Assembly: GCF_000379465.1 (NCBI RefSeq)
Contig: NZ_KB905414.1
Span: 124,001 to 188,000 of the forward strand
Source: Sciscionella marina DSM 45152
Lineage (GTDB): Bacteria > Actinomycetota > Actinomycetes > Mycobacteriales > Pseudonocardiaceae
Direction: 5' to 3'
DNA: 64,000 bases
Shown: positions 28,323 to 42,815 of the stretch, in pieces
How positions within the stretch are numbered: position 1 is the stretch's first letter
Layout of the letters: each line of letters opens with the position of its first letter
Notes under the pieces: model-generated
Told to the model about the DNA's origin: nothing
What the model saw: only the letters and a program-made list of their open reading frames with translations
Databases searched by the model: none
Position numbers and translations under genes: made by a program

Positions 28323-28908
28323 GACAAGCGCCCGCCCGGCCGCCCCTCCGGCCGAACTCCAGCTCCTCCTGATCGGGATCGGTGGCCAGGGCATCCAGCT
28401 GATCGGCAAGACACTCGCGCAGGCCGCCACCAACACCGGCAAACACGCCATGCTCGCCGCCGACTACGGCGGTGAGATGCGCGGCGGCCCCTCGAACGCC
28501 TCCGTCGTGATCGGTACCGAACCGCTGCGCTCACTGCCGATCCTGCCGAGCGCGACGGCGGCGATCGTGGCCAGCCACAAGTTCGCCGGACCGGTGCCGC
28601 AGCGCCTGCGCGAAGGCGGCCTGCTGTTGCGCAACTCCTCGGTGGTGGACAGCGGTGCGGGACGCGAGCATCACCGGGTGGTCGAGGTCCCGGCGACCGC
28701 GATGGCCACGGAGCTCGGTGCGCCGCAGGCGAGCGGGTTCATCCTGCTCGGCGCGTTCAACAGGCTGACCGGACTGGTGCCGGAGGCGGAACTCGTCACC
28801 GCGATGACCGCGCTGCTGCCGCCGTACCGGGCCCAGCACGCGACCAAGAACGCCGAGGCGCTGTCCGCGGGAGCCGCCGCGGTCGCCGGGCAGGAGGCAC
28901 CGAGGTGA
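28321..28908 (+). CDS. 2-oxoacid:ferredoxin oxidoreductase, gamma subunit
   Basis: 195-residue pyruvate/ketoisovalerate oxidoreductase gamma domain. IGIGGQGIQLIGKTLAQAA is the signature glycine-rich segment, followed by YGGEMRGGPSNASVVIG. It forms part of a TPP-, CoA- and ferredoxin-dependent oxidative decarboxylase. The ATG has no ribosome-binding site and follows the AT-rich promoter directly, so the message may be leaderless. The stop overlaps the GTG of the alpha subunit. In most aerobic actinomycetes this domain is fused in a two-subunit enzyme; here it is a separate polypeptide, as in anaerobes. Confidence 0.88.
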   Translation: MTSARPAAPPAELQLLLIGIGGQGIQLIGKTLAQAATNTGKHAMLAADYGGEMRGGPSNASVVIGTEPLRSLPILPSATAAIVASHKFAGPVPQRLREGGLLLRNSSVVDSGAGREHHRVVEVPATAMATELGAPQASGFILLGAFNRLTGLVPEAELVTAMTALLPPYRAQHATKNAEALSAGAAAVAGQEAPR

Positions 28909-30014
28909 ACACCGCCGTCGCCAAGCCATCCATGCAGTTGCTCGAAGGGGCAACGGCCATCGCCGAATCGGCCATCCTCGCGGGCTGCCGGTTCTTCGCC
29001 GGTTACCCGATCTCCCCGTTCACCCCGCTGCTCGAGCACATGTCCCGGGCACTGCCCGAGAACGGCGGTGTCTGCATCAACGCCGAGAGCGAGATCGAGG
29101 GCGCGAACATGGCGCTCGGTGCGGGCGCGACCGGGGCGATGGCGGCTACCGGCTCCTGCGGCCAGGGCCTCGCGCTCATGCAGGAGACCATCGCCGAGGC
29201 CGCGCTCAACGAGACGCCCATGGTCGTGTTCAACCTGGCCCGTAACCAGCAGGACTACTTCCAGGCGACCAGGGGCGGCGGCTGGGGCGACTACCGCACC
29301 ATCGCCTTGGCGCCCAAGGACATCCCCGAAGCCGTCGAGCACACCCAGCTGCTGTTCCACCTCTCCCGGCGCTACCGGGCGCCGACGCTCCTCTACGGGG
29401 ACCCGCTGCTGGCCCAGACCAGGGTCGGCGTGCACCTGCGCAGGATCGAATTCGACGAGTTGCCGCCGCAGGACTGGGCGCTGGACGGAACCGGCGGCGG
29501 CACCGGGGAATCCCGCCAGATCTGGACCTGGGCGATGGGCAAGGCCACGAATCCCGGGCTCGGGCCGGACGGACACTGGCAGCAGGTGGCCGCGAAGTTC
29601 GACCGGATCGCCGAGCTCGAACAGCGCAGCGAGCAGCGCTACGCCGAGGATGCCGACACTCTCGTGGTGTCGTTCGGCTCGGCGGCCAAGTTCATCGAAC
29701 ACGTCGTGGAGGAATTGCGCGCCGAAGGACACCGGATCGGCTGGTTCCGGCCGATCTCGCTGTGGCCGTTCCCCGGTCCCGCGCTGGCCGGGGCGACCGC
29801 CGGGATCAAGCGCGTGCTGGTGTTCGAGCTGAACGCCGGGCAGATGCTCGAGGATGTGCGGCAGTACGCCAGGGACCGCGACGCGATCCGGTTCATCGGC
29901 GGCGTCAGCATCCACGAATCCGGACTCTCGTACGGGCCGCTGCTCGACGCCCCGGAGATCCGTGCGCGCATTCTCGCCGCCATCGCCGAGGATTCGACAA
30001 GGAGTACATCATGA
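28905..30014 (+). CDS. 2-oxoacid:ferredoxin oxidoreductase, alpha subunit
   Basis: 369-residue alpha subunit (KorA/VorB type). The pyrimidine-binding domain is recognised by AGCRFFAGYPISPFTPLLEH and INAESEIEGANMALGAGATG, with the Rossmann-like domain II near WFRPISLWPFPGPAL. It pairs with the beta subunit to bind TPP. The GTG start overlaps the gamma stop, and its own stop overlaps the beta ATG, giving tight translational coupling. Confidence 0.9.
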   Translation: MNTAVAKPSMQLLEGATAIAESAILAGCRFFAGYPISPFTPLLEHMSRALPENGGVCINAESEIEGANMALGAGATGAMAATGSCGQGLALMQETIAEAALNETPMVVFNLARNQQDYFQATRGGGWGDYRTIALAPKDIPEAVEHTQLLFHLSRRYRAPTLLYGDPLLAQTRVGVHLRRIEFDELPPQDWALDGTGGGTGESRQIWTWAMGKATNPGLGPDGHWQQVAAKFDRIAELEQRSEQRYAEDADTLVVSFGSAAKFIEHVVEELRAEGHRIGWFRPISLWPFPGPALAGATAGIKRVLVFELNAGQMLEDVRQYARDRDAIRFIGGVSIHESGLSYGPLLDAPEIRARILAAIAEDSTRSTS

Positions 30015-30823
30015 CCCAGGAACTCCGGATCGTTCCGACCGACCGTCCACCGGCCGACGGCAAGGCGCGCAAGGTCGCCGATTTCCGCCCTTCGCTCATG
30101 CTCGGCGAGCACGGGCTCTGCCCCGGCTGCGGGGAACCGGTCGCGCTGCGCATCCTGCTGGAGACCCTGCAGGATCTCGGCATCGTGAACAACTCCATCG
30201 GCGTGGTCGGGCACGGCTGTTACGGCAGCTTCGTCCGGATCATGGACGTCGACGTGTTGCAGTGCCTGCACGGGCGGGCGCCGTCCTGCGCTACCGGGAT
30301 CAAACGGATGCGCCCGCAGACCGCCGTGTTCACGATGCAGGGGGACGGCGACATGGTCAACGAGGGACTGCAGGAAGTGCTGCACACCGCGGCACGCGGG
30401 GAGAACGTCACCGCGATTCTGCTCAACAACGGGGTGTTCGGGGATACCGGAGGACAGCAGACCGCGACGACCGTACTCGGCCAGCGCACGAAGACGAGCA
30501 TCGAGGGGCGCGACCCAGGACTGCACGGGCATCCGATCCCGGTCGCCGATCTGGTCGCGAGCCTCGACGGCGTCGGCTATGTCGCTCGCGGCGCGGTGGG
30601 CACAGCCGGATCGATAGCCCGGACCAAGCGAATGATCCGCGCCGCTTTCGAAAGCCAGCTCGCCGGTGAGGGATTCAGCCTCGTGGAGATCCTCACCATG
30701 TGTCCCACCGGCTGGTTCGTCGGCGCCCCACAAGGTCCGGACTACCTCGCGGAATCGATGGAGCAGGTCTTCCCGCTCGGCGACCTCCGCGCCCGGCCGA
30801 AGCCGTCCGGAGCAGGCGCATGA
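30011..30823 (+). CDS. 2-oxoacid:ferredoxin oxidoreductase, TPP-binding beta subunit
   Basis: 270-residue beta subunit. Four cysteines C37, C40, C70 and C231 fit the proximal [4Fe-4S] cluster. GDGD (111-114) to NN (139-140) is the TPP/Mg motif, followed by GDTGGQQTATTVLGQRTKT and GRDPGLHGHP, wording typical of ketoacid oxidoreductases from strict anaerobes. The substrate 2-oxoacid (pyruvate, 2-oxoglutarate or branched) cannot be read from sequence. ATGA overlaps join it to alpha before and to the GntR gene after. Confidence 0.9.
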   Translation: MTQELRIVPTDRPPADGKARKVADFRPSLMLGEHGLCPGCGEPVALRILLETLQDLGIVNNSIGVVGHGCYGSFVRIMDVDVLQCLHGRAPSCATGIKRMRPQTAVFTMQGDGDMVNEGLQEVLHTAARGENVTAILLNNGVFGDTGGQQTATTVLGQRTKTSIEGRDPGLHGHPIPVADLVASLDGVGYVARGAVGTAGSIARTKRMIRAAFESQLAGEGFSLVEILTMCPTGWFVGAPQGPDYLAESMEQVFPLGDLRARPKPSGAGA

Positions 30824-31611: not shown

Positions 31612-31835
31612 ACCAACCACGGGGAACGGTGGTCATCGACACCGAGCGGTGCAAGGGCTGCGAGCTCTGCATCGAGGCGTGCCCACCCGATGTACTGGTG
31701 ATGTCGACCGAGGTGAACGAGACCGGCTACCGCTATCCCCTGCTGCAGTCCGGGTGTACCGGCTGCACCGCCTGCCGGATGGTCTGCCCGGACCAGGTTT
31801 TCGAGGTCTACCGGTTCGACGCACGAGGTGCCTGA
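31608..31835 (+). CDS. 2-oxoacid:ferredoxin oxidoreductase, delta subunit (2[4Fe-4S] ferredoxin)
   Basis: 75-residue ferredoxin-like subunit. C15, C18, C21, C25 and C50, C53, C56, C60 form two perfect CxxCxxCxxxCP clusters (CKGCELCIEACP and CTGCTACRMVCP). It would carry electrons from the proximal cluster of the beta subunit to a soluble acceptor. The ATG overlaps the GntR stop, so it belongs to the same coupled operon although separated from the other subunits by the regulator. Confidence 0.92.
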   Translation: MNQPRGTVVIDTERCKGCELCIEACPPDVLVMSTEVNETGYRYPLLQSGCTGCTACRMVCPDQVFEVYRFDARGA

Positions 31836-31905
31836 CTCGCCGGATGGGCACGCGCCACACCGGCACCGGCGAGCTCCGAACGAACTGCCACAAAGGAGTG
31901 CAGTG

Positions 31906-33240
31906 ATGTCTTCGGTCGATCCCCGGCTGGTGTCCGCATCCACCGGGAACGAGCACTTACACCGTCCGGGCGCCAGGACTTTCCTCGCGGTGAATCTGGG
32001 TAACGCGCTCGAATGGTACGACTGGTCGATCTTCGCGGTTTTCGCCGTCTATTTCGCCGATGACTTCTTCGGCAACGGCGATGGCGTCTCCAGTCTGCTC
32101 TCCACATTGGCGACCTTCGCGGCCGGATTCGTGATGCGCCCGCTCGGCGGCCTCGTCTTCGGCCGGATCGCCGATCGCCGTGGCCGCCGCGGTGTCCTCG
32201 TCCTGACGATGATGATCGTCGCCGCGGGCAGCATCCTGCTCGCGCTCAGCCCGACCTACCGGCAGATCGGACTGGGTGCCTCGGTGTGGCTGCTGGTGCT
32301 CCGGTGCGCACAGGGCTTCGCGCACGGCGGTGAACTCGGCGGGGCCTACACCTACATCGCCGAGATTGCTCCCGCGGCCAAGCGCGGTCTGTGGGGCAGC
32401 ACCGTGACGATGTCCACCGTGGTCGGTACGGTGCTGGCGACTCTGGTCGGCGCGCTGCTGCGGACCGGGATCAGCGAGGAGCAGATGGGCGCGTGGGGCT
32501 GGCGGGTTCCGTTCGTGATCGGCGGGCTGCTCGCGCTACTGGGCCTGTGGCTGCGCCGGGGCCTGCACGAGCCGGAGGTGTTCACCCGCTCCGCGGAGAC
32601 GGTCGCGGCGGACCGGCGCGTCACCGGGCTGTGGGCACACCGCGGCGCGCTGCTGCGGGTCGTGGCCATCGTGGCGGGCAGCACGATGATCAACTACGTG
32701 TGGTCGGTGAACGCACCCGCCTATGCCATCAGCTTCCACGGCATGAACGACACCGCGGCGCTGTGGGTCGGCATGGGAGCCAACCTGTTGTTCCTCAGCA
32801 CGCTTCCGTTGGCGGGCATGATCTCCGACCGGTACGGCCGGAAGTTCAACCTGATCGTCTGGGGTATCGGCTCGGCAGCGCTGGCGTTCCCACTCTCCGC
32901 GTTGCTCGGCCCCCATCCGATGAGCCTGCTGCTGGCCATGATGCTGGCCCTGGTGGTGCAGTCGTTCAGCGGGAGCATCCAGGTCGCCCTGTTCGCCGAG
33001 CTGTTCAGTACCCGGGCCAGGGCCGCGGGTGTCGGTCTCGCGGTGTCGATCTCCGCCGCGATCTTCGGTGGTACGGCGCCGTATCTCGACTCCTGGCTCA
33101 CCGCACGGGGCTTTCCGGAGGTGTTCACCGGATACGCGGTCGTGCTCGCACTGATCGGCATCCTGGCCCTGGTGCGCATGCCGGAGACCAAGGGCATCGA
33201 TCTGGGCGTCCACAGTGGACTGAGCACACGGCTCAGATGA
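31906..33240 (+). CDS. MHS-type MFS metabolite:proton symporter
   Basis: 444-residue, about 12-helix transporter of the metabolite:H+ symporter family (relatives carry 2-oxoglutarate, citrate, shikimate, betaines). NALEWYDWSIFAVFAVYFAD at helix 1 and GRIADRRGRRGVLV in loop 2-3 are diagnostic. The ATG at 31906 has AAAGGAG upstream and lies 70 bp after the ferredoxin gene, so it may be co-transcribed with the oxidoreductase. It is a candidate importer of the oxoacid or steroid-acid substrate. Its stop overlaps the convergent HsaA-like gene by 8 bp. Confidence 0.88.
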   Translation: MSSVDPRLVSASTGNEHLHRPGARTFLAVNLGNALEWYDWSIFAVFAVYFADDFFGNGDGVSSLLSTLATFAAGFVMRPLGGLVFGRIADRRGRRGVLVLTMMIVAAGSILLALSPTYRQIGLGASVWLLVLRCAQGFAHGGELGGAYTYIAEIAPAAKRGLWGSTVTMSTVVGTVLATLVGALLRTGISEEQMGAWGWRVPFVIGGLLALLGLWLRRGLHEPEVFTRSAETVAADRRVTGLWAHRGALLRVVAIVAGSTMINYVWSVNAPAYAISFHGMNDTAALWVGMGANLLFLSTLPLAGMISDRYGRKFNLIVWGIGSAALAFPLSALLGPHPMSLLLAMMLALVVQSFSGSIQVALFAELFSTRARAAGVGLAVSISAAIFGGTAPYLDSWLTARGFPEVFTGYAVVLALIGILALVRMPETKGIDLGVHSGLSTRLR

Positions 33241-34399
33241 GATTGTCCTCCACGGTGAACCCGAACTCGCCGCGGCCGTACATGGCCAGTGCCCGCTCGA
33301 CGTCGTTGGCCACGTGCACGCTGCCCGCGTGCGCGTCCCGCCAGGCGCGTTCGATCGGGTTGCCGCGCCGCAGCGAGTTGCCCCCGGCCATCTTGAACAG
33401 GATGTCGATGGCCTCCAGCGCGCGTTCGGTGCCGCGCACCTGGTCCCGCCGGGTGCGCAGGCGCAGCTCCATCGGGATCTCGCGCCCGCCGAGGGCGCAT
33501 TCGTAGAGCTCGCGGATGTTGCGCTCCTGCTGCAATACGGCGGCGTCGACCTCCGAGGCAGCCCTGGCCACCGCCACGTGGGCGAACGGGTCGTCGACGA
33601 ACCGGTCCCCTCCGTAGCTCAGGCGCACCCGGTCGCGCAGCACGGTGAGGTAGTCGCGGTAGCAGCCGGTCACGATGCCGATCAGCGGCGCGGTGACCGT
33701 GGTGGTGAAGATCGAGGCGAACGGCATCCGGTACAGCGGCCCGCTGTTCACCCGCTGGCCCGGCCCGCGCAGCTGGACCTGGTCGTAGTTGCGGATGCAA
33801 CGGTGCTCTGGGACGAAGGCGTTCCCGACGAGGATGTCGTCGCTGGCCGTCCCGCGCAGCCCGGTGGCATCCCAGGTCCGCTTGATCGTGTAGTCGGTCC
33901 GGGGCACCAGCACGCTGAGCACATCCACCGGCCTGCCGTCCTGCCCGAGCACACAGGCGCCGAGCAACGCCCAGCTCGCATGCCCGCATCCCGAGGAGAA
34001 GCTCCACTGCCCGGACAGCCGGTATCCGTTCTCCCCCACCGGTTCGAGCCAACCGACCGGAGCGTAGGCCGAGGACACCAGGGTGTCCGCGTCCTGCCCC
34101 CACACCTCCTGCTGGGCCCGCTCGTCGAACAGCCCCAGTTGCCATGGGTGCACACCGAGCACCGCGGTGATCCAGCCGGTGGACCCGCAGGCCGCGGACA
34201 GTTCGCGGACCACCTGGTAAAACTCGACCGGGTTCGTTTCCATCCCACCGAACCGCTTCGGCTGCAGCATCCGGAACACGCCGGCGGCCTTCAGCTCCGT
34301 CACGGTCCGTTCGGGCACCGCCCCCTCGGTGTCGGCGTCCGCTGCCCGGGACGCGATCCCCTCGAGCAGTTCGCGCACCGCTTCCCTGACCTGGTTCAT
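33233..34399 (-). CDS. HsaA-like flavin-dependent monooxygenase (paralogue 2)
   Basis: 388-residue oxygenase of the HsaA group and the closest of the three paralogues to mycobacterial HsaA: QPKRFGGMETNP, CGSTGWITAVLGVHPWQLGLFDERAQQEVWG, RRDQVRGTERALEAID, IERAWRDAHAGSVHVANDVERA and an EFGFTVEDNLI end parallel HsaA (EFGLPPGDTMV). It hydroxylates a phenolic ring using FMNH2 supplied by HsaB. The start at 34399 (MNQVREAV) follows the family; the longer open frame is unsupported. The adjacent palindrome at 34464 may control it from the other side. Confidence 0.88.
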   Translation of the reverse strand: MNQVREAVRELLEGIASRAADADTEGAVPERTVTELKAAGVFRMLQPKRFGGMETNPVEFYQVVRELSAACGSTGWITAVLGVHPWQLGLFDERAQQEVWGQDADTLVSSAYAPVGWLEPVGENGYRLSGQWSFSSGCGHASWALLGACVLGQDGRPVDVLSVLVPRTDYTIKRTWDATGLRGTASDDILVGNAFVPEHRCIRNYDQVQLRGPGQRVNSGPLYRMPFASIFTTTVTAPLIGIVTGCYRDYLTVLRDRVRLSYGGDRFVDDPFAHVAVARAASEVDAAVLQQERNIRELYECALGGREIPMELRLRTRRDQVRGTERALEAIDILFKMAGGNSLRRGNPIERAWRDAHAGSVHVANDVERALAMYGRGEFGFTVEDNLI

Positions 34400-34463
34400 C
34401 GACACACTCCCAACCGCACCGCCGCCATAGTGGGCCATCCGCCGACGCCGCTGCCAGGTTTCG

Positions 34464-34513
34464 TCCCGCCCACCGGGAACCGAGCCCCGTACATGCCCGG
34501 TCGGCGCTACCGT
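34464..34513 (+). promoter_or_regulatory. TCCCG-N5-CGGGA operator plus -10 for the small cysteine protein gene
   Basis: Perfect arms TCCCG-CCCAC-CGGGA (34464-34478), 29 bp, then TACCGT (34508-34513). The predicted start of transcription is near 34520 with a GGAAGGGA ribosome-binding site at 34532. The site lies between two divergent genes and could serve both. Confidence 0.7.
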
Positions 34514-34550
34514 AACCGCCCTCGGTACAACGGAAGGGATCGGGACGATC

Positions 34551-34805
34551 GTGATTCGTGAGGACAATCGGCTGGCGGACCTGCCCATGACGACACTGTC
34601 GTGCCGCACCTGTGCCGCCGAGGTACTGGTGCGCAAGGCCAGCTGGCAGCAGACCAGTATCCAGTGGGACTGCACCGCATCCGCGGCCTGCCTCGAACGG
34701 CAACGGCACCGGGAGAAGGGTGTGCCGTTCGCGGCCTGTACCGCACTCAGCGAGTCGATCTCCCGCGCGGCGGTCTCCGGCGAGTTGGACATCGCTCAGG
34801 AGTAG
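34551..34805 (+). CDS. Small cysteine-containing protein of unknown function
   Basis: 84-residue protein. Four or five cysteines (CRTC near residues 18-21, then C42, C47 and C62) suggest a small metal-binding fold, with the pattern LSCRTCAAEVLVRK, SIQWDC and PFAACTAL. Similar small proteins accompany Rieske or flavin oxygenase genes in actinomycetes as far as I recall, but no function is known to me. The GTG start has GGAAGGGA 10 bp upstream and the gene has its own operator and -10, which argues strongly that it is real and co-regulated with the steroid-ring genes. A ferredoxin-like or oxygenase-accessory role is possible. Confidence 0.65.
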   Translation: MIREDNRLADLPMTTLSCRTCAAEVLVRKASWQQTSIQWDCTASAACLERQRHREKGVPFAACTALSESISRAAVSGELDIAQE

Positions 34806-34825
34806 GCCACCGCGCTCGCCGGAAA

Positions 34826-34840
34826 TCCCGGTCAACGGGA
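34826..34840. promoter_or_regulatory. TCCCG-N5-CGGGA operator upstream of the flavin reductase gene
   Basis: Perfect arms TCCCG-GTCAA-CGGGA. No -10 lies 29-30 bp downstream, but a half-site with the right spacing follows at 34888, so this may be the high-affinity upstream partner of a two-site promoter. Confidence 0.6.
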
Positions 34841-34887
34841 CGTTTCCGATCCGGTGGGGACCGGCGCAGCGACTCTCCGGACCAGGA

Positions 34888-34937
34888 GGTTGATCAACGG
34901 GATGAGCACCCAGCACGGCTCCCGGCGGATCTAGCGT
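34888..34937 (+). promoter_or_regulatory. Operator half-site and -10 for the flavin reductase gene (leaderless)
   Basis: ATCAA-CGGGA (34893-34902) preserves only the right arm, but TAGCGT follows after 29 bp at 34932-34937. The predicted start of transcription coincides with the ATG at 34945, and no ribosome-binding site is present, so the message is probably leaderless. Confidence 0.6.
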
Positions 34938-34944
34938 GGACCCC

Positions 34945-35469
34945 ATGACCGTTTCGAGAACCGTGCCGTCGCGGAGTGAGACCGCACCGACACCACACAC
35001 GATGCGCCGGGCGATGGGCAATTTCGCGACCGGTGTGACCGTCGTGTGCGGCCTCGACGAGGACACCCCGGTCGGCTTCGCCTGCCAGGCCTTTGCCAGC
35101 GTCTCACTCGAACCGCCGCTGGTGCTGTTCTGCGCGGACCACCGCGGCCGGGCCTGGCCGCTGATCCGTGCTGCCGGGCGGTTCAGCATCAACGTGCTCG
35201 CCGAGGAACAGGACGAGCTCTGCGCACGGTTCGGAACCCGTCAGGGCCGGAAGTTCGACGGCCTGCCCTGGCAACGATCCCGTTGGGACACACCCAATCT
35301 GCCCGGGGTGCTCATCCGCGCCCACTGCGCGGTGGACGATGTCCACGTGGCCGGGGACCACGATGTGGTGATAGGGACCGTGCTCGAGATCGAGGAGCCC
35401 GGCGCGCACCGGCGTCCGATGGTCTTCCACCGCGGCGGGTTCGGTATCCAGGACGAGACCGGCAGCTGA
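34945..35469 (+). CDS. HsaB-like flavin reductase
   Basis: 174-residue NAD(P)H:flavin reductase of the split-barrel flavin reductase-like family, the usual partner that supplies FMNH2 to HsaA-type oxygenases. MRRAMGNFATGVTVVCG, GFACQAFASVSLEPPLVLFC and a GRFSINVLAEEQ segment are diagnostic. It is the only HsaB-like gene in the window and would have to serve three HsaA paralogues. It has its own promoter with the shared operator and no ribosome-binding site. Confidence 0.88.
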   Translation: MTVSRTVPSRSETAPTPHTMRRAMGNFATGVTVVCGLDEDTPVGFACQAFASVSLEPPLVLFCADHRGRAWPLIRAAGRFSINVLAEEQDELCARFGTRQGRKFDGLPWQRSRWDTPNLPGVLIRAHCAVDDVHVAGDHDVVIGTVLEIEEPGAHRRPMVFHRGGFGIQDETGS

Positions 35470-35497
35470 CCGGCCTCCGACGGGGCCGGGCAGCGTT

Positions 35498-35534
35498 CCG
35501 GCCCGGCTCACTGGCGAACAGCGAGCCGGGCCGG
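35498..35534. terminator. Strong bidirectional hairpin
   Basis: A perfect 12-bp inverted repeat, CCGGCCCGGCTC (35498-35509) and GAGCCGGGCCGG (35523-35534), with a 13-nt loop lies midway between the convergent stops of the flavin reductase and dioxygenase genes. No T-tract, as is common in actinomycetes. Confidence 0.7.
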
Positions 35535-35546
35535 ATGTGCGGATGA

Positions 35547-36467
35547 TCAGTCGTCCGCGCTCAGTGTCGCCAGCGGTTCGGCGGCGGACCAATCGTGGCC
35601 CCAGTAGGAATCCGCGGTGATCTCCTCAGCGGTGTAGGAATCCTCGTCGACCAGCATGCCCTGGGTGCCGTACTCGATGTCCCAGCCACCGGGGGCCCGG
35701 ACGTAGAACGAGACCATCTTGTCGTTGGTGTGCCTGCCAAGTGTCGAGGAGATCGAGAACCCGGCACCGCGCACCCGGTCCAGTGCCCTGCCGACCGCGT
35801 CCAGCGAGTCGACCTCGACCATCAGGTGCACCACACCGGGCGCACCGACCTGCTCGGCGGGCAGCACCGCGAGGCTGTGGTGGCGCTGGTTGACGCCCAT
35901 GAACCGGATCCGCGGCGCGGCCCCATCGGCATCCGGCGGCCCGGCCTTCATCGCGCCGCGCGGCAGGAAGCCGAGAACCTCGGTGTAGAAGGAAACCGTC
36001 TCCTGCACCGCCGTGGTCGGCAGCACGATGTGCCCGAGCCCCTGTGCCCCGGTGACGAAGCGCTGCCCGAGACCGGTCAGCAGTGGGGAATGGTCGAGCA
36101 CCGGGCCGAAGAAGACCTCCACCTCGACCCCCGCCGGGTCGGTGAAGGTGATGGCCTGTTCCACGTCCCTTGCGGCCGCCTCGGCGGGTGAGAGCTGCTT
36201 GACCGCGATACCCGCGGACTCGACCGCCCGGCCGATCGCGGCCAGTGCGAACTGGTCCCGCGCTTCCCAGCCGACGGCCAGCACCTGGTCGAGGACGCCG
36301 GGCAACACGCTGACCCGCGCCGCGCGCTCATCGACCCGCAGATACAGGCCGCCCGGCTCCGGTCCGCTGCCTTCGGCGAACCCGAGACAGTCGATGGCCA
36401 GCTCCCGCCACCGTTCGATGTCGGCCGTCTGCACTTTGACGTACCCGAGACCGCGAATTTCACTCAT
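35547..36467 (-). CDS. hsaC: HsaC: iron-dependent 3,4-DHSA-type extradiol dioxygenase
   Basis: 306-residue VOC-family extradiol dioxygenase. Fe(II) ligands are H146 (GLGH), H214 (VVHL) and E265 (DIEYG); H196/H197, H246 (LGRHTND) and Y255 complete the active site. RFVTGAQGLGHIVL, FMGVNQRHHSLA and SYWGHDW follow mycobacterial HsaC closely. It cleaves the catecholic A ring of the secosteroid. It is the last gene of the minus-strand run KshA-KshB-HsaA-HsaC, 26 bp after the HsaA-like gene, which strongly supports the steroid assignment. Confidence 0.88.
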   Translation of the reverse strand: MSEIRGLGYVKVQTADIERWRELAIDCLGFAEGSGPEPGGLYLRVDERAARVSVLPGVLDQVLAVGWEARDQFALAAIGRAVESAGIAVKQLSPAEAAARDVEQAITFTDPAGVEVEVFFGPVLDHSPLLTGLGQRFVTGAQGLGHIVLPTTAVQETVSFYTEVLGFLPRGAMKAGPPDADGAAPRIRFMGVNQRHHSLAVLPAEQVGAPGVVHLMVEVDSLDAVGRALDRVRGAGFSISSTLGRHTNDKMVSFYVRAPGGWDIEYGTQGMLVDEDSYTAEEITADSYWGHDWSAAEPLATLSADD

Positions 36468-36493
36468 TGCGTTTCCCCGTTCGGATTGTGTTT

Positions 36494-37678
36494 TCAGATC
36501 ATGACCCGCAACGGGCCAGGGGGTGGCTCGATGTCCAGTCCGCCGAGCGCCGAGGAATGGAACGCCGCGCCCGGAACGTGCACCGCGTGCACCATGCCCA
36601 TGTGCGCGTCCCGCCAGAAACGCTGGATCGGATGGTTCATCCGCATCCCATTGCCGCCGGAGCGATCGACGATCTCATCGAGCGCGCGCACAGCCCGGCG
36701 CGCGGCCTGGATCTGGGTCCTGCGCCCCCGCGCCCGCTCGGCGAAGCTCGGCCATTCCCCGGCCGCGGCCCGGTCGTAGAACCACTTGATGTTGTCCAGC
36801 AACGCCGAACGGGACGCGGCGATCTCCGCGGATGCCTCACCGACCGCGTAGAGCACATAGGGGTCATCGCGGATCTGGGTCCCGGTGACCTGCACACGGT
36901 TGCGCTGATAGGCGAGGTGATGGGCCAGCGCGCCCTCGGCCATCCCGATCACCGAGGCGGTGATGCCGAGCGGGAACGCCTGGGTGAACGGCATCCGGTA
37001 GAGCGGATTCGTCAATCCGGCCTCGGCCGCCGCTTCCCCGCAGGCGACCCGATCGTAGGTGAGCACCCGGTAGTCCGGGACGAAGGCGTCCTCGACGAGG
37101 ATGTCCTTGCTCCCGGTCCCGCGCAGTCCCACGACATCCCAGGAGTCCTCGACGATCCGGTAGTCGGCGCGCGGAATGAGCACGTGCATCTGCTCCACTT
37201 CGGGCAGTGGCTTGCCGTCCGCATCCCCGATCACCGCGCCGAGGAAGAGCCAGTCGCAGTGGTCGGTCCCGGAAGAGAACTGCCAGTGACCGCTGAAAAG
37301 GTAGCCGCCGTCCACCGGACGCAGCACACCCATCGGAGCGTACGGCGAGGCCATCCAGGTCTCCTGGTTCTCGCCCCACACCTCCTCCTGCACCCGCGGA
37401 TCGGCCATCGCCAGCTCCCAGGGATGCACCCCGACGACGCCGGCCACCCAGCCGGAGGATCCGTCCAGCGCGGCCAGCCTCATCACCGCTTCGGCGAACT
37501 CCACCGGGTGGCTCTCCGAACCGCCGTACTTCTCCGGCTGCTGCATCCGGATGATGCCGGAATCCCGGATGAGACGGGCTGCCCTGTCGTCAAGGCGGCC
37601 CAGCTTCTCGTTGCTCGGGCCGAGCTCGGCGATCCGGTCCGCGTTCTCGTTCAGGAACTCGATTGTCTTCTGGCTCAT
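36494..37678 (-). CDS. HsaA-like flavin-dependent monooxygenase (paralogue 3)
   Basis: 394-residue HsaA-group oxygenase, directly upstream of hsaC and downstream of kshB. QPEKYGGSESHPVEFAEAVM, DGSSGWVAGVVGVHPWELAM and IQRFWRDAHMGMVHAVHV are conserved, but the C-terminal tail (LGGLDIEPPPGPLRVMI) departs from the EFGF/EFGL ending of true HsaA and the motif reads RDAHMG rather than RDAHAG. The substrate may therefore differ from that of paralogue 2. The ATG at 37678 was chosen over an in-frame upstream codon at 37720 by family length. Confidence 0.87.
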   Translation of the reverse strand: MSQKTIEFLNENADRIAELGPSNEKLGRLDDRAARLIRDSGIIRMQQPEKYGGSESHPVEFAEAVMRLAALDGSSGWVAGVVGVHPWELAMADPRVQEEVWGENQETWMASPYAPMGVLRPVDGGYLFSGHWQFSSGTDHCDWLFLGAVIGDADGKPLPEVEQMHVLIPRADYRIVEDSWDVVGLRGTGSKDILVEDAFVPDYRVLTYDRVACGEAAAEAGLTNPLYRMPFTQAFPLGITASVIGMAEGALAHHLAYQRNRVQVTGTQIRDDPYVLYAVGEASAEIAASRSALLDNIKWFYDRAAAGEWPSFAERARGRRTQIQAARRAVRALDEIVDRSGGNGMRMNHPIQRFWRDAHMGMVHAVHVPGAAFHSSALGGLDIEPPPGPLRVMI

Positions 37679-37852
37679 GCCATCCCCAACTCCGTTGGTC
37701 TGCTGTGGATCTGGGCACACACGAGTCCGGGCACGGTCTCGGTGAGTTCGTCTTCGACGGGATTCCCCGCTCCCGCCTGGAATCCTGTCAAGGGCGGGGG
37801 CCTGGGCACCCGGCGGCTCTCGCCGACCGGGAGAGTGATCGCGTCCCGGTGC

Positions 37853-38887
37853 TCATTCGTCATAGCTGACCCGGAGGTGATCACTCAGCGGGACGGACTG
37901 GCAGGCCAGTACGATGCCGTCGGCGAGGTCCTCGGGTTCGAGTACCTCGTTGCGCAGCATCTCGACTTCCCCTTCCAGGACGAAGCAGGCGCAGGCACTG
38001 CAGTTTCCCTCCCGGCAGGAGAACGGCGCGTCCACACCGGCCTCCAGGAACGCGTCCAGCATCCGCTCGCCCTTCGGGCAGGATACGGTCTGTGTCTCGC
38101 CTTCGAGCTGTACTTCCACGGTGGCCGAGGGGCCGCTGTGGTCGAGTGCGGACCGCGGCTCCGCGAAGGGATCGGTGTCCAGCGAGAAGAACTTCTCCTG
38201 GCGGACGCGTTCGGCGGCCACACCGGCGGCGGCCGCGGCGGCGGTGACCGCGGCCATGTAGGGCTGCGGTCCGCAGACGTACATCTCGCGGTCCCGGTAC
38301 GGGCGCAGATGCTCGCGCAACAGCTCCATCGAGGGCAGCCCCTGTACCGATTCCAGCAGATGCACCGTGTGCAGCCGGTCCGGGTGTTTTCCTTGCAGGG
38401 CGAGCAGTTCCTCGCCGAAGATCACCGACTGCTCGTCGCGGTTGGCATAGATCAGCGCCACCCGGCCGGTGCCGCCGTGCAGCACCGACTTGAGGATCGA
38501 CATCATCGGGGTGATGCCGCTGCCCGCGGCGACCAGCAGCAGATCCGCGTCCAGCGAGGACGGCGTGAACATTCCCGAGGGCCGCAGCACTTCGAGCTCG
38601 TCGCCGACGTTCAGGTTGTCGCAGAGCCAGTTCGAGCCATACCCCTCGCCGGTGCGTTTCACCGTCACCTGCATCGGCTCGCGGAGCAGTGGCGAACTGG
38701 ACAGCGAATAGCAGCGCGCCGCCCCGCCCTCCCGATCGGTCGGCACGTTGATCGTGAGGAACTGGCCGGGGCGGTAGCTGAACCGCTCGGCATCACCCTC
38801 CTCCGGTTCCAGCACGATCGAACGGGCGTCCTCGGTCTCGGCACGGATCGCCGCGACCCGAAGCTTGTAGGAATGTGTCACCGACAT
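37853..38887 (-). CDS. kshB: KshB: 3-ketosteroid 9-alpha-hydroxylase reductase
   Basis: 344-residue ferredoxin reductase: FAD-binding domain (RPGQFLTINVP, RCYSLSSSP), NAD-binding domain (LLVAAGSGITPMMSI and YVCGPQPYM) and C-terminal plant-type [2Fe-2S] ferredoxin with CREGNCSACAC and a distal cysteine in LACQS. This FAD-NAD-2Fe2S order is that of KshB and related class IA/III reductases. It passes electrons from NADH to the Rieske oxygenase encoded 61 bp upstream. Some relatives (HmP/PaaE type) share the layout, but the location next to KshA makes KshB most likely. Confidence 0.88.
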   Translation of the reverse strand: MSVTHSYKLRVAAIRAETEDARSIVLEPEEGDAERFSYRPGQFLTINVPTDREGGAARCYSLSSSPLLREPMQVTVKRTGEGYGSNWLCDNLNVGDELEVLRPSGMFTPSSLDADLLLVAAGSGITPMMSILKSVLHGGTGRVALIYANRDEQSVIFGEELLALQGKHPDRLHTVHLLESVQGLPSMELLREHLRPYRDREMYVCGPQPYMAAVTAAAAAAGVAAERVRQEKFFSLDTDPFAEPRSALDHSGPSATVEVQLEGETQTVSCPKGERMLDAFLEAGVDAPFSCREGNCSACACFVLEGEVEMLRNEVLEPEDLADGIVLACQSVPLSDHLRVSYDE

Positions 38888-38948
38888 CCGGCGTCCTCGC
38901 CCCGGGCGGGCCCGATCGGCTCGCCACCGTGCCGGTCGAGTACAGCCG

Positions 38949-40154
38949 TCATACGCCGACTGCCTGCTGCTTGGCGAGGTTGTCGGCCACTTCCTGCTTC
39001 CAGGCTTCGATGGCCTTCGAGGTATCGATCTCGAATTCGAACCGATCGGTCATCTCCGGGGTCACCTCGGCGGCGTCCACATAGAACTGTTCGTACCAAC
39101 GGCGCAACTGATAGACCGGACCGTCCTCCTCGCACAACAGTGGGTTGTCGATGCGCGCCTTGTTCTTCCAGATCTGCACGTCCTGCAGGAACCCGGCCTC
39201 GACGCCCTTGGCCATCGCCTTGGCCATCGACTCGGACTCCTCGGTGGGCATACCTTCCGGTTTCTTCACTCGCAGCCCGTATTGCAGGATGAAGCTGTCC
39301 TTGGTCACGGGGTAGTGGCAGTTGATCAGCACCGTGTCGACCATGCCTGCCTCGAACTCGTAGCTCAGGTAGTCGATCATGTAGGATGGTCCGTAGTACG
39401 ACGCCTCGGAGTACTGCTTGAGCAGCTTCGGCATCGGCTTTCCGTCCTCGTCCACGTACATCAGCAGATCGTCACGCTGATGCCCCTCGTAGTACTGGGT
39501 GGCCACGTGCCCTTCGAACACATTGCGGCAGGAGGTCGGGAACGCACCGTGCACATAGAAGAAGTGCGCCATGTCGACCACGTTGTCGATGATCTCCCGG
39601 CAGTTGACGTTGACCAGGATCGGTTTCCACAGCCAATCGGTCCACTCGCCTTCCTCGAGCCCACGGATCGCGGGCACGGCGAACTCCTCGGGAGGCTGGT
39701 TACCCTCCGGGTCGTTCCAGACGAACAGCAGCCCGTCGCGCTGCATCGTCGGCCACGCCTTGGTCCTGGCCCGCAGCGGCACCCGGCGTGAGTACGGGAT
39801 CTGCTTGCACCGTCCGTCGCCGCCCCAGCGCCAGTCGTGGAACGGGCAGGCGATCTCGTTGCCCCGCACGGATCCCTGGCTGAGGTCGCCGCCCATATGC
39901 CTGCAGTAGGCGTCGAGCACGTTGACGGTGCCGTCCTCGCCCTGGAACACCACCAGTTTGCCGCCGAACGCGTTGATCGTGTGCGGCTGGCCATCGCCGT
40001 AGCTGCTGGCCAGCCCCAGGCAATGCCAGCCACGAGCGAATCGTGTGGTGACCTCGGTGGCCTCAATGGAACGCACTTCGGCGTCGTTGGCATCGACAGC
40101 TGACACGTCGACCACGGTCCCTTCCTCATCGAACAACGGAGCCTCACTGAACAC
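38949..40154 (-). CDS. kshA: KshA: 3-ketosteroid 9-alpha-hydroxylase, Rieske oxygenase
   Basis: 401-residue terminal oxygenase. Rieske ligands C84, H86, C103 and H106 (CRHMGG and CPFHDW), the linker GGDGRCKQIPY, mononuclear iron ligands H197 and H202 in DNVVDMAHFFYVHG, and the stretch ARIDNPLLCEEDGPVYQLRR plus YEQFYVD agree closely with KshA of mycobacteria and rhodococci. It hydroxylates C9 and, with KstD, opens ring B. The start is GTG at 40154, only about six bases after the predicted transcription start, with no ribosome-binding site. Confidence 0.92.
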   Translation of the reverse strand: MFSEAPLFDEEGTVVDVSAVDANDAEVRSIEATEVTTRFARGWHCLGLASSYGDGQPHTINAFGGKLVVFQGEDGTVNVLDAYCRHMGGDLSQGSVRGNEIACPFHDWRWGGDGRCKQIPYSRRVPLRARTKAWPTMQRDGLLFVWNDPEGNQPPEEFAVPAIRGLEEGEWTDWLWKPILVNVNCREIIDNVVDMAHFFYVHGAFPTSCRNVFEGHVATQYYEGHQRDDLLMYVDEDGKPMPKLLKQYSEASYYGPSYMIDYLSYEFEAGMVDTVLINCHYPVTKDSFILQYGLRVKKPEGMPTEESESMAKAMAKGVEAGFLQDVQIWKNKARIDNPLLCEEDGPVYQLRRWYEQFYVDAAEVTPEMTDRFEFEIDTSKAIEAWKQEVADNLAKQQAVGV

Positions 40155-40302: not shown

Positions 40303-41160
40303 TCAGTCGACGACCACAGAGCTGTACTCGGGTGGCGGCGCGAGGAACCGGCGATTCGAGACGGGTGCCTTGCCGTCCACGTCGAGCACGCCGAGTTCTT
40401 CACCGAGCTCGGCGCCGACCAGCACCCGGCCGGAGTAGGCCATCCGGTCCGGGGAATCGGCCAGCGCAGCGATCACCCGGCCGGTGAACTCCGGAGATTC
40501 CGCCAGCCCGGCCAGTTTCCCGTAGCGCTCGTTCCCCGCGGCAAGCACAGCCTCGGTGCGTTCGGTGCGCAGCAGCCCCATCCAGACCGACACCGCCGCC
40601 ACACCGTGCGGCCGCAGATCGTGCGCCATATCGTGCGCCATCTTGTCCACGCCGGCCTTCACCGCACCGTAGGCGGGACCGTGCATGTAGCACATGCCGC
40701 CGAACGCGGAGGTGTGCACCAGCAGACCGGCCGGGCTCCGGGTCAGCAGCGGTGCCCCATAGTAGCCGGACACGTAGCTCGACCGCAGTCCGACATCGAA
40801 CATCCGTTGCATGGCAAGCGGTTTCCGCCAGAACGGTCCCGGATCGACCAGCTCGTCCGGGACGATGAACGCGTTGCTGACCAGAATGTCGAGCCTGCCG
40901 TGTGCCCGCTCCACCCGGTCGAACAGCGCGGCCGTCTGCTCGTCCTCGGCGTGGTCGCACACCACCGGGATGCCGGTGCCGCCCCGGGCGCTGATCTCCT
41001 CAGCCGTCGCGTAGACGGTTCCCGGCAGCGGGGCGGCCCCCTCGACCTCGGTGCGCCCGGTGACGTACACGGTCGCCCCGGTCGTGCCGAGCGCCAGTGC
41101 GATGCCCTTGCCCGCGCCGCGGCTCGCACCGGTGACCACGGCCACCCGGTCGGCGCTCAT
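40303..41160 (-). CDS. DHRS1-like short-chain dehydrogenase
   Basis: 285-residue SDR. TGASRGAGKGIALALGTTGATVYVTGR, an insertion after the second strand, SNAF in place of NNAG, TSAFGG (Ser) and YGAVK place it in the DHRS1-like subgroup, whose human member reduces steroids among other carbonyls. The ATG overlaps the stop of the upstream KstD-like gene (ATGA), so the pair is coupled. A steroid ketone/hydroxyl conversion is likely by context. Confidence 0.85.
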   Translation of the reverse strand: MSADRVAVVTGASRGAGKGIALALGTTGATVYVTGRTEVEGAAPLPGTVYATAEEISARGGTGIPVVCDHAEDEQTAALFDRVERAHGRLDILVSNAFIVPDELVDPGPFWRKPLAMQRMFDVGLRSSYVSGYYGAPLLTRSPAGLLVHTSAFGGMCYMHGPAYGAVKAGVDKMAHDMAHDLRPHGVAAVSVWMGLLRTERTEAVLAAGNERYGKLAGLAESPEFTGRVIAALADSPDRMAYSGRVLVGAELGEELGVLDVDGKAPVSNRRFLAPPPEYSSVVVD

Positions 41161-42698
41161 CGCCGCTGCGCCATGTGCAGCGCGGCGAGATGGCTGAACA
41201 CCATGGAGGAACCGATCGGGTTGCCACCGCCGGGGTAGGCCGTCCCGCTCACCGCGGCCATCGAGTTGCCCGCCGCGTACAGTCCCTGGATCGGCGCGCC
41301 GGAGACGTCCAGCACCCGCGCGTCCGGATCGGTGCACAGCCCGCCTTTGGTGCCGAGATCCGAAAGCCCGAAGGCCACCGCGTGGAACGGCGGCTGCTCG
41401 ATGGGCACCAGCGGCGACCGGTCACCCGTGAAGAATCGATCGTAGGGCTCCTCCCCTCGCCGGAAATCGGTGTCCACCCCGGACTCGGCCATCCGGTTGA
41501 ACCCCCGCACGGTCGCCGCAAGCCGATCGCCGGGCACGCCGATCCGATCGGCCAGCCCGCCGAGAGTGGCGGCGCTGTGCCACAGTCCCGCCCGCTCGTA
41601 ATCGGAGGACTCACCGAGCGGGACGCTGGTCGACTGCACCGGTGGCCGTGCGCCCGACCGGTCGTCGTAGACCATCCAGAACGGCAAGCGGATATCCCCA
41701 TCGCGCAACCGGTCCAGCACCACACGGCCGATCCGGTCGTAGGGCAGCGACTCGTTCACGAACCGCTCGCCGTGCACGTCGACGAAGATCCCGCCGGTGA
41801 ACCAGAGGGAAAACGTGGACCGGCCGTCGGGATGCGTGATCCCCGGCGACCACCACGCCTCGGACATCAGATCGGTGTCCGCGCCGAACTCGATCGCAGC
41901 CTGGATCGCCGCACCCTGATTTCCTTGCGGGGCCATCGAATCCCGTGCCGCGCCGGGCACTCCGTACCGATCGCGCAGTCCCTGGTTGCGTTCGAATCCA
42001 CCGGAGGCGATCAGCACCCCGCGTCGTGCACCGATCCGCCGTCTCCCCTGCCCCGTCGAGACCAGCGCGCCCTGCACAGCCACACCGTCACCGAGCAGCC
42101 CTTCGCACCTCGCGGCCGTGCGCATGGTGACGCCGTCGCGCCGGGAAAGGGCCAGCAACAGCCTGCCGAGCAGCGACTGACCGCCGATCAGCTCGTCCGG
42201 GAGCGGCACTTCACCGCGATCGCTCGGCAACGGTGGACGCAACCGTTCGCGCAGCGAGCCGAGCCGTGCCGCGGGCATCGACGGAGCCATGATGTGCCGT
42301 CCGTCGCCTCGTGCCTTCGGCGCGGATCCGTAGTAGTCCGGCCACGGATACTTGCGGAACTCGAAGGCGTCGTCGCTTTCCAGGTAATCGATCAGCCGGG
42401 GCCCGTTGTCCAGATAGGCATCCTGCAGCGCGCGCGGGGTGCGTTCACCGACGACCGCGCGATAGTAGGCTCGCGCATCCTGTGGCCGGTCGTCATCGCC
42501 CGCGCGGCGCAGCGCCGCGTTGCCCGGCAACCAGAGCCCGCCGCCGGAGTAGGCCGTCGTACCGCCGAAGTACTCGGTCGACTCCACGACGAGTACCGAG
42601 AGTCCTTCGCGTGCCGCGGTGTAAGCGCCGGTCAGCGCGCCGCCCCCGGAACCGGCGACCACCACGTCGTATTCCTCGTCCCAGGCCCGTTCAGACAT
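41157..42698 (-). CDS. KstD-family FAD dehydrogenase with altered active-site box
   Basis: 513-residue flavoprotein. GSGGGALTGAYTAAREG is the FAD motif, GGTTAYSGGGLWLPGN and SDLGTKGGLCTD, then GLYAAGNSMAAVSGTAYPGGGNPIG, are KstD-type. Where the sister protein at 20286 has a tyrosine before the GDLGT box (LYAVRIV), this one has FHAVAFGLSDLGT, replacing Tyr by His and Gly by Ser. It may desaturate a different position (for example delta-4 of a 3-oxo-5-steroid) rather than C1-C2. Starts at 42707, 42701 and 42698 are possible. It is coupled to the DHRS1-like gene. Confidence 0.85.
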   Translation of the reverse strand: MSERAWDEEYDVVVAGSGGGALTGAYTAAREGLSVLVVESTEYFGGTTAYSGGGLWLPGNAALRRAGDDDRPQDARAYYRAVVGERTPRALQDAYLDNGPRLIDYLESDDAFEFRKYPWPDYYGSAPKARGDGRHIMAPSMPAARLGSLRERLRPPLPSDRGEVPLPDELIGGQSLLGRLLLALSRRDGVTMRTAARCEGLLGDGVAVQGALVSTGQGRRRIGARRGVLIASGGFERNQGLRDRYGVPGAARDSMAPQGNQGAAIQAAIEFGADTDLMSEAWWSPGITHPDGRSTFSLWFTGGIFVDVHGERFVNESLPYDRIGRVVLDRLRDGDIRLPFWMVYDDRSGARPPVQSTSVPLGESSDYERAGLWHSAATLGGLADRIGVPGDRLAATVRGFNRMAESGVDTDFRRGEEPYDRFFTGDRSPLVPIEQPPFHAVAFGLSDLGTKGGLCTDPDARVLDVSGAPIQGLYAAGNSMAAVSGTAYPGGGNPIGSSMVFSHLAALHMAQRR

Positions 42699-42764
42699 CA
42701 TCGGCATACCGTTCCGGTCGCTCTCGGCAGGATGCGGCGCGCCCGCGGCGGCCCGCTTCCGGAC

Positions 42765-42815
42765 ATGCTCGCCCGCGAGCCGAGCCCGGTGGCCGGTCCA
42801 TCCCACTCATCAGGA
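42765..42815 (-). promoter_or_regulatory. TCCCG-N5-CGGGA-type operator plus -10 for the KstD-like/SDR operon
   Basis: On the minus strand TCCTG-ATGAG-TGGGA (42815-42801), 30 bp, then GAGCAT (42770-42765). The predicted transcript begins about 50-60 bp before the start codons. It lies between the PadR gene and this operon. Confidence 0.62.

Follow-up and report, generated by a model that had tools for sequence, protein, structure and literature searches.

A 64,000-nucleotide stretch of the Sciscionella marina DSM 45152 genome (hereafter the window) raises the question of why three HsaA-type oxygenases and two extradiol dioxygenases should be accompanied by a single HsaB-type flavin reductase. 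The reading that we favor, with a probability of roughly 70%, is that the window represents a second island for degradation of the steroid nucleus, beside a canonical hsa operon on contig C1. A second kshA, kshB and kstD, an hsaA2-type gene, hsaC and hsaB were found together, apart from the cholesterol-type cluster. The core belongs to a known kind of second actinobacterial cluster and is in itself a variant of published ones; what is unusual is mainly the occurrence of two HsaA genes beside one HsaC, plus a third, distant HsaA with a dioxygenase.

Oxygenases, dioxygenases and neighboring genes

The HsaA-type ORFs at 3745, 33233 and 36494 and the dioxygenase ORFs at 4948 and 35547 had been placed correctly in a preliminary description of this DNA. 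HsaA1 (33233-34414, minus strand) scored 608 bits against the HsaA equivalog model NF045629 (cut-off 450) and fell in a clade adjoining canonical HsaA; the start of its gene lies near 34414/34399 rather than at the first ATG (34792) of the 519-aa ORF. Neither HsaA2 (36494-37720, minus strand; 388 bits) nor the divergent HsaA3 (3745-4920, plus strand, alternatively from 3733; 371 bits) reached this cut-off. Since HsaA1 is the only window copy above 450 bits, it alone passes as HsaA, in agreement with the earlier remark that only this copy ends like true HsaA. The different tail that had been noted in HsaA2 is real but typical of its clade, being common to eight family members and similar to the C-terminus of the RHA1 hydroxylase 2or0, which belongs to the HsaA2 clade. 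2or0 differs from the HsaA2 copy on pRHL1, and a literature search found no paper naming PDB 2OR0.

The residues His120, Ser146, Ser171 and His396 (C2-HPAH numbering), which we take to be the catalytic positions of HsaA-type oxygenases, are kept in all three window copies, as well as in 36 of 36 HsaA1-type and 26 of 26 HsaA2-type rows, including 2or0. The phylogenetic comparison proposed in the preliminary description separated the three divergent copies into distinct clades, that of HsaA3 being long-branched. The suggestion of more than one phenolic substrate is plausible. HsaA1 and HsaA2 are not recent duplicates, being only 38% identical and placed in separate clades. The tree comprised 37 HsaA1 rows at ≥400 bits (one of them the strain's own C1 copy), the best 25 HsaA2 rows and the one HsaA3 relative found; sequences that contained a stop codon or masked letters, or were shorter than 330 residues, were left out. 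The eight "other" rows include four HsaA2 genes, of which three are duplicates; some rows are identical, and the meeting of HsaA3 with the HsaA2 clade carries a long-branch warning.

The HsaC-type dioxygenase (35547-36467, minus strand) adjoins HsaA2, and HsaC3 (4948-5817, plus strand), a divergent member of the BphC/HsaC superfamily, is the partner of HsaA3. The two are 36% identical and scored 326 and 253 bits, respectively, against NF045631 (cut-off 450); the BphC model TIGR03213 (cut-off 366) gave the higher values of 351 and 274 bits, again below the cut-off. In BphC, His146, His210 and Glu260 are presumably the iron ligands and His195, His241 and Tyr250 the catalytic residues of type I extradiol dioxygenases; all six are kept in both window enzymes. 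The HsaC tree was built from the best 40 HsaC-type rows and the three HsaC3-type rows found, with a long-branch warning where HsaC3 meets BphC. The HsaB-type flavin reductase (34936-35469, plus strand; 180 bits, NF045630 cut-off 230) and the HsaD-type C-C hydrolase (24905-25792, plus strand; 297 bits, NF045632 cut-off 400) also remained below their cut-offs.

Upstream of HsaA2 on the minus strand lie a KshB-type reductase (FAD/NAD/2Fe-2S; 37853-38887), a KshA-type Rieske oxygenase (38949-40154), an SDR dehydrogenase (40303-41160; one of 45 window query translations, it was read out of frame with two stops given as X, and its matches were left out of the comparisons), a KstD-like flavoprotein (41157-42806; PRK12837, 770 bits, cut-off 675) and a PadR-type regulator (42854-43573). 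Homologues of the latter occur in RHA1 pRHL1 (46%) and in genome G858 (53%), both near a homologous cluster; the C-19+ cluster of Mycobacterium smegmatis is PadR-regulated. On the plus strand there follow a Baeyer-Villiger monooxygenase (BVMO; 43967-45571), an IclR-type regulator (45593-46831) and an F420-dependent LLM-class oxidoreductase (47016-47891). The remaining genes are a first F420-dependent LLM-class oxidoreductase (9599-10486, plus strand), a KstD (20286-22019, minus strand; PRK12845, 957 bits, cut-off 793), a KstD-like FAD-binding enzyme of the PRK07121 type (22215-23726, plus strand), a 2-oxoacid:ferredoxin oxidoreductase (OFOR; 28905-30823, plus strand; alpha 28905-30014, beta about 30011-30823) and an MFS transporter (31828-33240, plus strand). 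Several features count against the island reading: the cluster is rearranged, HsaB is opposite in strand to its neighbors, the HsaD usual in relatives is missing and the only HsaD present is of another type, and the LLM gene at 9599 and KstD at 20286 are kilobases away.

Recurrence of two HsaA genes with one HsaC

The surroundings of HsaA2 were compared in 80 loci, the best of at least 568 confirmed HsaA2 matches. A homologue was counted when it lay in the retrieved flanking DNA with ≥45% identity and >50% coverage. The flanks extended no more than 10 kb to either side, and several stopped at a contig end, so that absences weigh little. Among these best 80, homologues were found of HsaC (69/80), HsaB (60/80), KshB (59/80), IclR (56/80), the PRK07121-type enzyme (49/80), KshA (42/80), the LLM genes at 9599 (37/80) and 47016 (11/80), and HsaA1 (24/80). 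Two or more HsaA-type genes were present in 28 of the 80 loci, and more than one HsaC (≥120 bits) in none. The extra gene was of the HsaA1 type at ≥63% identity in 25 of the 28; in the other three (L096, L102, L106) the second HsaA is only 31-42% identical, and in L102 and L106 the single HsaC stands beside this distant third kind of HsaA, not beside HsaA2. The second HsaA gene is partial in two of the 28.

Among 297 genomes of the family, which overlap the 80 loci in at least five pairs, HsaA1 (≥59%) was found in 14, HsaA2 (≥64%) in 15 and both in 11 (Fisher p 2e-13, own genome left out, kinship ignored), with cut-offs chosen at visible breaks in the ranked matches. For HsaA1, HsaA2 and the window HsaC alike, the nearest relatives include L095 and L110. 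Some genomes deviate: G208 has the closest HsaA1 relative (74%) and no HsaA2 at ≥64%, with one at 56% on another contig, and in G080 and G073 HsaA1 occurs without an HsaA2 match and with no HsaC detected nearby. Taken by sequence, HsaA1 and HsaA2 appear to be two old oxygenases that are usually inherited together. A literature search on hsaA1/hsaA2 returned nothing informative, hsaA2 occurring in a paper on mycobacterial cholesterol degradation.

HsaA3 and HsaC3 form a separate, rare and divergent set, as far as homology indicates. HsaA3 is 54% identical to a gene in locus L186, and no further relative was found at E≤1e-100 among the 297 family genomes; 29 plasmid records matched, all below 60% identity (35-43% among the 15 matches listed). 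The nearest relative found of the window HsaD lies beside HsaA3-HsaC3 in L186. In G327, relatives of HsaA3 and HsaC3 are adjacent and adjoin an HsaD-type gene, with a 55% homologue of the MFS transporter about 6 kb from this set. Searching the literature for hsaA3/hsaC3 retrieved some papers on steroid degraders among the matches, and nothing informative.

The preliminary description had proposed that two HsaA-HsaC pairs act on different phenols and share one HsaB. A pair formed by the dioxygenase at 4948 and the oxygenase at 3745 is genuine, the two being adjacent both here and in G327, and the 36% identity between the HsaCs suits two pairs. The position of HsaC would also agree with its pairing with HsaA2, HsaA1 then being an additional gene. 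However, HsaA1 and HsaA2 recur together with a single HsaC, so that HsaA1 would be left over although it usually travels with HsaA2, and a second HsaB exists on C1; we regard the two-pair arrangement as unlikely.

The canonical hsa set and related clusters

A canonical hsaA-D-C-B set was identified on contig C1, with all four genes over the curated cut-offs (HsaA 690, HsaD 480, HsaC 551 and HsaB 262 bits). The HsaB model gave 18 matches across the genome: the window and C1 genes and 16 further ones below the cut-off. Thus the idea of one HsaB for all copies is correct for the window and fails genome-wide, because C1 holds a second HsaB over the cut-off. HsaE, HsaF and HsaG had been reported absent from the window; neither the window nor the 19.5 kb examined on either flank gave a match. 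The prediction that part of the pathway lies elsewhere was borne out by hsaEFG-like genes at C1:541 kb, including an HsaF-type aldolase over its cut-off and an HsaE-like hydratase at 264 bits (cut-off 409). C1 also has a gene judged by eye to be IpdA-like, for which an NCBIfam scan gave no family at E≤1e-30.

A complete second cluster, with the window copies inactive, had been named as contrary to the preliminary description. A second hsaABCD set and hsaEFG-like genes do exist, yet the window copies, with their catalytic positions kept, show no sign of being inactive. The complete C1 set could do the chemistry by itself, and the window genes might then be leftover duplicates with no distinct role. 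Such redundancy is made quite improbable by the open reading frames, by the retained catalytic residues, by the placement of the copies in three clades and by their conservation together across genera.

Among the closest known systems is that of Nocardioides (Pimelobacter) simplex VKM Ac-2033D, cluster D (KR76_27035-27130), which, judged by published gene names, shares kshA, kshB, hsaB, hsaC, hsaD, kstD1 and kstD2 with the window (PMC7807495, PMC7593942). Locus L164 (P. simplex ATCC 6946), taken as cluster D, has homologues of its genes and HsaA2, and no HsaA1 match was found there. Compared with cluster D, the window is rearranged and adds HsaA1, HsaA3-HsaC3, BVMO and OFOR genes. Cluster D is described as being without KstR/KstR2 sites (PMC7807495, PMC7593942). 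Its genes are reported to be induced by phytosterol, and only kstD2 by cortisone acetate (PMC7807495), a pattern that counts against the island reading. Plasmid pRHL1 of Rhodococcus jostii RHA1 (NC_008269, L182) likewise has KshB-KshA-HsaA2-HsaC in a row, with homologues of HsaB, HsaD, PadR, IclR and KstD nearby; it differs in carrying HsaE/F/G-like genes inside the cluster (identified partly by eye), and the 41179 bases compared gave no HsaA1 match. A second steroid set, for C19 steroids, is the C-19+ cluster of M. smegmatis, which is likened here by its published description and is said to have evolved apart from the KstR regulon (PMC5962712).

Saccharopolyspora hirsuta, compared by published gene names alone, also has a second kshA/kshB, kstD1 and kstD2 side by side and a second hsa set (hsaA3, hsaB3, hsaC3, hsaD3), but differs in having casACEHI alongside (PMC8708139). 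These hsa genes, clustered with cas genes in S. hirsuta, are described as orthologues of those of RHA1 (PMC8708139), and the published RHA1 gene numbers run HsaB3, HsaD3, KstD3, HsaA3, HsaC3 (PMC8399759), like the order in many relatives. The window might therefore be a cholate (bile-acid) ring-degradation cluster equivalent to RHA1 hsaA3-D3. As the best match in the genome to CasG (steroid-24-oyl-CoA synthetase) scored only 316 bits (cut-off 750), a cholate side-chain cluster was rejected as the main reading, and the ring-degradation variant also seems improbable.

Possible roles and substrates

For the second nucleus-degradation island, the following order of reactions may be proposed. The KstD flavoproteins and KshAB would open ring B, and HsaA1 and/or HsaA2, probably supplied by HsaB, would hydroxylate the resulting ring-A phenol. 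The single HsaC of the cluster might serve both oxygenases in cleaving the hydroxylated ring, and an HsaD-type hydrolase would split its product, the small fragment then being handled by hsaEFG products encoded outside the island. The substrates of HsaA1 and HsaA2 would most likely be 9,10-seco phenols of one kind that differ in C17/side-chain or ring substituents. HsaA3-HsaC3, with HsaD, may serve another phenol as a rare set of its own. The window HsaC adjoins HsaA2, not HsaA1, and HsaA1 could therefore rely on the HsaC of C1.

Descriptions of A-ring hydroxylation in steroid degradation usually give each cluster a single HsaA. That two HsaA lineages recur beside a single HsaC across several genera of actinobacteria suggests a division of labor, which would help to predict the steroids (androgens, progestogens, bile acids) that a strain mineralizes. 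In a further reading, which we consider very unlikely, HsaA1 and HsaA2 would act in succession on one molecule, hydroxylating the same aromatic ring twice (or a substrate that requires two hydroxylations) before HsaC cleaves it. This would add a previously undescribed step to the 9,10-seco pathway and account for the retention of two oxygenases beside a single dioxygenase.

A phenol hydroxylase, an extradiol dioxygenase and OFOR within one island would also fit an estrogen-type 4,5-seco module, a reading underlain by the roles of the Edc/Oec estrogen enzymes. Such a module would hydroxylate and cleave phenolic ring A with ring B intact, followed by oxidative decarboxylation. However, OFOR is not near HsaA3-HsaC3 in G327, the relatives of this pair adjoin an HsaD-type hydrolase that an estrogen 4,5-seco product would not need, and OFOR is of the two-subunit type with a PorB/KorB-like beta subunit, leaving this the slightest of chances. 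OFOR was likewise not supported as a conserved part of the island: its alpha gene was found in no other of 200 family genomes (E≤1e-90), and gave no match in the G327 stretch or in the relatives' loci.

With regard to substrates, KstD (20286) is 69% identical to the copy in L164 and 63% to that of RHA1 pRHL1. L164 is presumed to correspond to the cluster in which cortisone acetate raises kstD2 1200-fold (PMC7807495). For KshA, the best PDB match, 4qdf, leads the next, 4qdc, by just 545 to 537 bits. The closest solved relative of the BVMO is steroid monooxygenase 4aos (646 bits, compared with 533 for phenylacetone monooxygenase), and a close homologue occurs in only three of the best 80 of at least 568 HsaA2 loci. 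By these similarities, the steroid-monooxygenase-like BVMO and the KstD2-like and KshA5-like genes suggest C19/C21 (testosterone/progesterone-type) steroids. The LLM genes, being of the F420 family, may be of another kind than the LLM by which Caenibius degrades progesterone. The pdc progesterone cluster of Caenibius tardaugens (PMC12239570) resembles the window in the placing of BVMO and LLM genes next to a regulator; the regulator is of the TetR/LuxR type there and of the IclR type here, where the LLM is of the F420 class and the BVMO, among solved structures, is closest to 4aos.

Gene content and affiliation of the window oxygenases

The hsa-type genes of the window probably (probability roughly 0.7) belong to a second steroid nucleus-degradation island of a known actinobacterial kind, additional to the hsa operon on contig C1 of the same genome. 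The window (68% G+C) corresponds to bases 124001-188000 of contig C35; the genome comprises 8.54 Mb in 86 contigs. All of the HsaA-like, HsaC-like and HsaB-like genes named in the preliminary description were found in it. Among the window oxygenases, only HsaA1 (33233-34414, minus strand) passed the NCBIfam HsaA cut-off of 450 bits, scoring 608; HsaA2 (36494-37720, minus strand) and HsaA3 (ORF 3733; 3745-4920, plus strand) reached 388 and 371 bits. The dioxygenases HsaC (35547-36467, minus strand; 326 bits) and HsaC3 (4948-5817, plus strand; 253 bits) scored below the HsaC cut-off of 450, as did the HsaB reductase at 34936 (180 bits; cut-off 230) and the HsaD hydrolase at 24905 (297 bits; cut-off 400) with their own NCBIfam models. 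Nearby genes encode a KshA-type Rieske oxygenase (38949), a KshB-type reductase (37853), three KstD-like flavoproteins, a Baeyer-Villiger monooxygenase (BVMO; 43967), PadR (42854) and IclR (45593) regulators, two LLM-class oxidoreductases, acyl-CoA ligases and SDRs. A two-subunit 2-oxoacid:ferredoxin oxidoreductase, unusual next to steroid genes, is encoded at 28905-30823, and its alpha gene had no close relative among 200 family genomes.

A phylogeny against characterised HsaA proteins (80 rows), proposed earlier as a check, separated the three window oxygenases, whose pairwise identity is 33-38%. The HsaA1 clade (support 100/99) branched together with the canonical HsaA proteins from M. tuberculosis, RHA1 and contig C1 (93/88), HsaA2 shared a clade with 2or0 of RHA1 (100/100), and HsaA3 grouped only with a gene of genome G327 (100/100), on long branches and with an unsure deeper placement. 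In the alignment, all three keep the catalytic positions His120, Ser146, Ser171 and His396 of C2-HPAH; Arg263, which binds the substrate in HPAH, is replaced in all three, likewise in canonical HsaA. Metal ligands and catalytic residues are kept in both window dioxygenases.

Recurrence of HsaA1 and HsaA2 beside one HsaC

With identity thresholds placed at gaps in the match listings, an HsaA1-type gene (at least 59%) was detected in 14 of 297 family genomes and an HsaA2-type gene (at least 64%) in 15. Both occurred in 11 genomes, HsaA1 alone in three and HsaA2 alone in four; the Fisher p value for co-occurrence (2e-13, own genome excluded) overstates independence, because 6 of the 10 remaining genomes belong to one genus. 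The two genes lie on one contig, at most 12 kb apart, in 9/11 genomes, and on separate contigs in 2/11. The nearest HsaA1 relative (74%), in G208, comes from one of the three genomes lacking HsaA2 at this threshold.

The gene neighbourhood was examined in 80 named HsaA2 loci, the best 80 of at least 568 matches, with homologues defined by at least 45% identity and more than 50% coverage. Homologues of HsaC were present in 69 of these, HsaB in 60, KshB in 59, IclR in 56, the 22215-type flavoprotein in 49, KshA in 42, LLM9599 in 37, HsaA1 in 24, KstD41157 in 12, LLM47016 in 11, KstD20286 in 10 and BVMO in three. Counting places at 120 bits or more, at least two HsaA-type genes were found in 28/80 loci, and a recheck confirmed separate genes rather than split matches; HsaC-type genes numbered exactly one in 71 loci, none in nine and two in none. 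The extra HsaA gene was HsaA1-type (at least 63%) in 25 of the 28 loci and of a more distant kind (31-42%) in L096, L102 and L106. HsaC adjoins HsaA2 in most multi-HsaA loci, so we only infer its use by HsaA1, and our confidence in a second steroid island is slightly lowered, HsaC not being central to both oxygenases. The loci of an Actinoallomurus MAG (L095) and Actinomadura sp. DC4 (L110) are among the nearest relatives of window HsaA1, HsaA2 and HsaC in the trees, which fits joint inheritance.

Several loci differ in arrangement. L110 carries three HsaA-type genes (5897-7054, 10001-11182, 16717-17868) and one HsaC. In the Hoyosella loci L102 (3131-5145) and L106 (3136-5135), HsaC stands beside the distant HsaA kind (31% to HsaA1), with HsaA2 apart from it. 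In L086 and L087, an HsaA1-type gene adjoins an HsaD-type gene and a PRK07121-type flavoprotein gene is present; HsaC and HsaA2 were undetected there.

The HsaA3-HsaC3 pair and HsaD

HsaA3 had no other match at E<=1e-100 among 297 family genomes, and HsaC3 had a single match besides itself at E<=1e-75 among 394 genomes of the class, in G327. There, homologues of HsaD (62%), HsaA3 (54%) and HsaC3 (56%) are consecutive, with an MFS homologue (55%; 31828 in the window) ~6 kb further; the window Ksh and KstD genes were unmatched in the surrounding 31 kb. HsaD of the 24905 type (E<=1e-85) was found in four of 298 genomes of the order, own genome counted. The G858 copy has KshA-HsaA2-HsaC, PadR, HsaB and KstD in its vicinity and another HsaD past them, and the G691 copy adjoins an HsaA2-type gene and HsaE/F/G-like genes (the latter identified by eye). 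HsaD therefore ties the HsaA3-HsaC3 set to steroid clusters.

Remaining pathway genes, known clusters and likely substrates

No match to HsaE/F/G turned up in the window or within 19.5 kb to either side of it, and the expectation that part of the pathway is encoded elsewhere was borne out. On contig C1, hsaA, hsaD, hsaC and hsaB follow one another in that order in an operon (690, 480, 551 and 262 bits, all over cut-off), so the window HsaB is not, as had been supposed, the only one available to all copies. The operon adjoins kstD-, kshA- and kshB-like genes (46%, 57% and 45% identity to their window counterparts). The genome search for hsaEFG recovered HsaF-type aldolases over cut-off at C46:100 kb, near aromatic-dioxygenase-like genes (by eye), and at C1:541 kb, the latter beside an IclR gene and accompanied by an HsaE-like hydratase (below its own model's cut-off) and an HsaG-like gene named by eye; among the hits listed, ORFs of this stretch were 47-71% identical to matching stretches in relatives' clusters. 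The stretch (C1:540.9-543.7 kb) is far from both steroid clusters, and its IclR is 36% identical to that of the window. A further pair, HsaA-like (31% to HsaA1) and HsaB-like (204 bits), lies at C19:42732-45484, outside the HsaA clades of the tree.

Published accounts name S. hirsuta hsaA3, hsaB3, hsaC3 and hsaD3 as RHA1 orthologues (PMC8708139) and, for the R. ruber Chol-4 genome, list kshA, a 'hydroxylase', hsaC, iclR, padR and a cyclohexanone-monooxygenase gene in one steroid region (PMC6498646); this makes the window cluster one variant of a type already described. Ordinary as it is in kind, it is distinguished by a single HsaC accompanied by two conserved HsaA lineages and by the rare third HsaA-HsaC pair. 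No description of the two-HsaA/one-HsaC arrangement was found in the literature searched, mostly outside subscription journals, a weak sign of novelty.

The closest structures to KshA are 4qdc and 4qdf, the latter being that of KshA5. The BVMO scored 646 bits to steroid monooxygenase 4aos versus 533 to phenylacetone monooxygenase, and its homologues (53-60%) share a locus with HsaA2 in R. erythropolis plasmid pLRE138 (L183), L102, L106 and L174. N. simplex cluster D contains kshA (the closest orthologue of KshA5), kshB, hsaB, hsaC, hsaD, kstD1 and kstD2; phytosterol upregulates several genes of the cluster, and cortisone acetate raises kstD2 1200-fold (PMC7807495). In a companion study the cluster is presumed responsive to steroids other than cholesterol and lithocholate (PMC7593942). 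Progesterone use by C. tardaugens relies on a BVMO and an LLM protein (PMC12239570). The substrates are likely to be C19/C21 steroids, a reading that we rate at roughly even odds. The steroid-monooxygenase-like BVMO, IclR and F420-class LLM oxidoreductase genes are consecutive at 43967-47891, a grouping that recalls the pdc progesterone genes.
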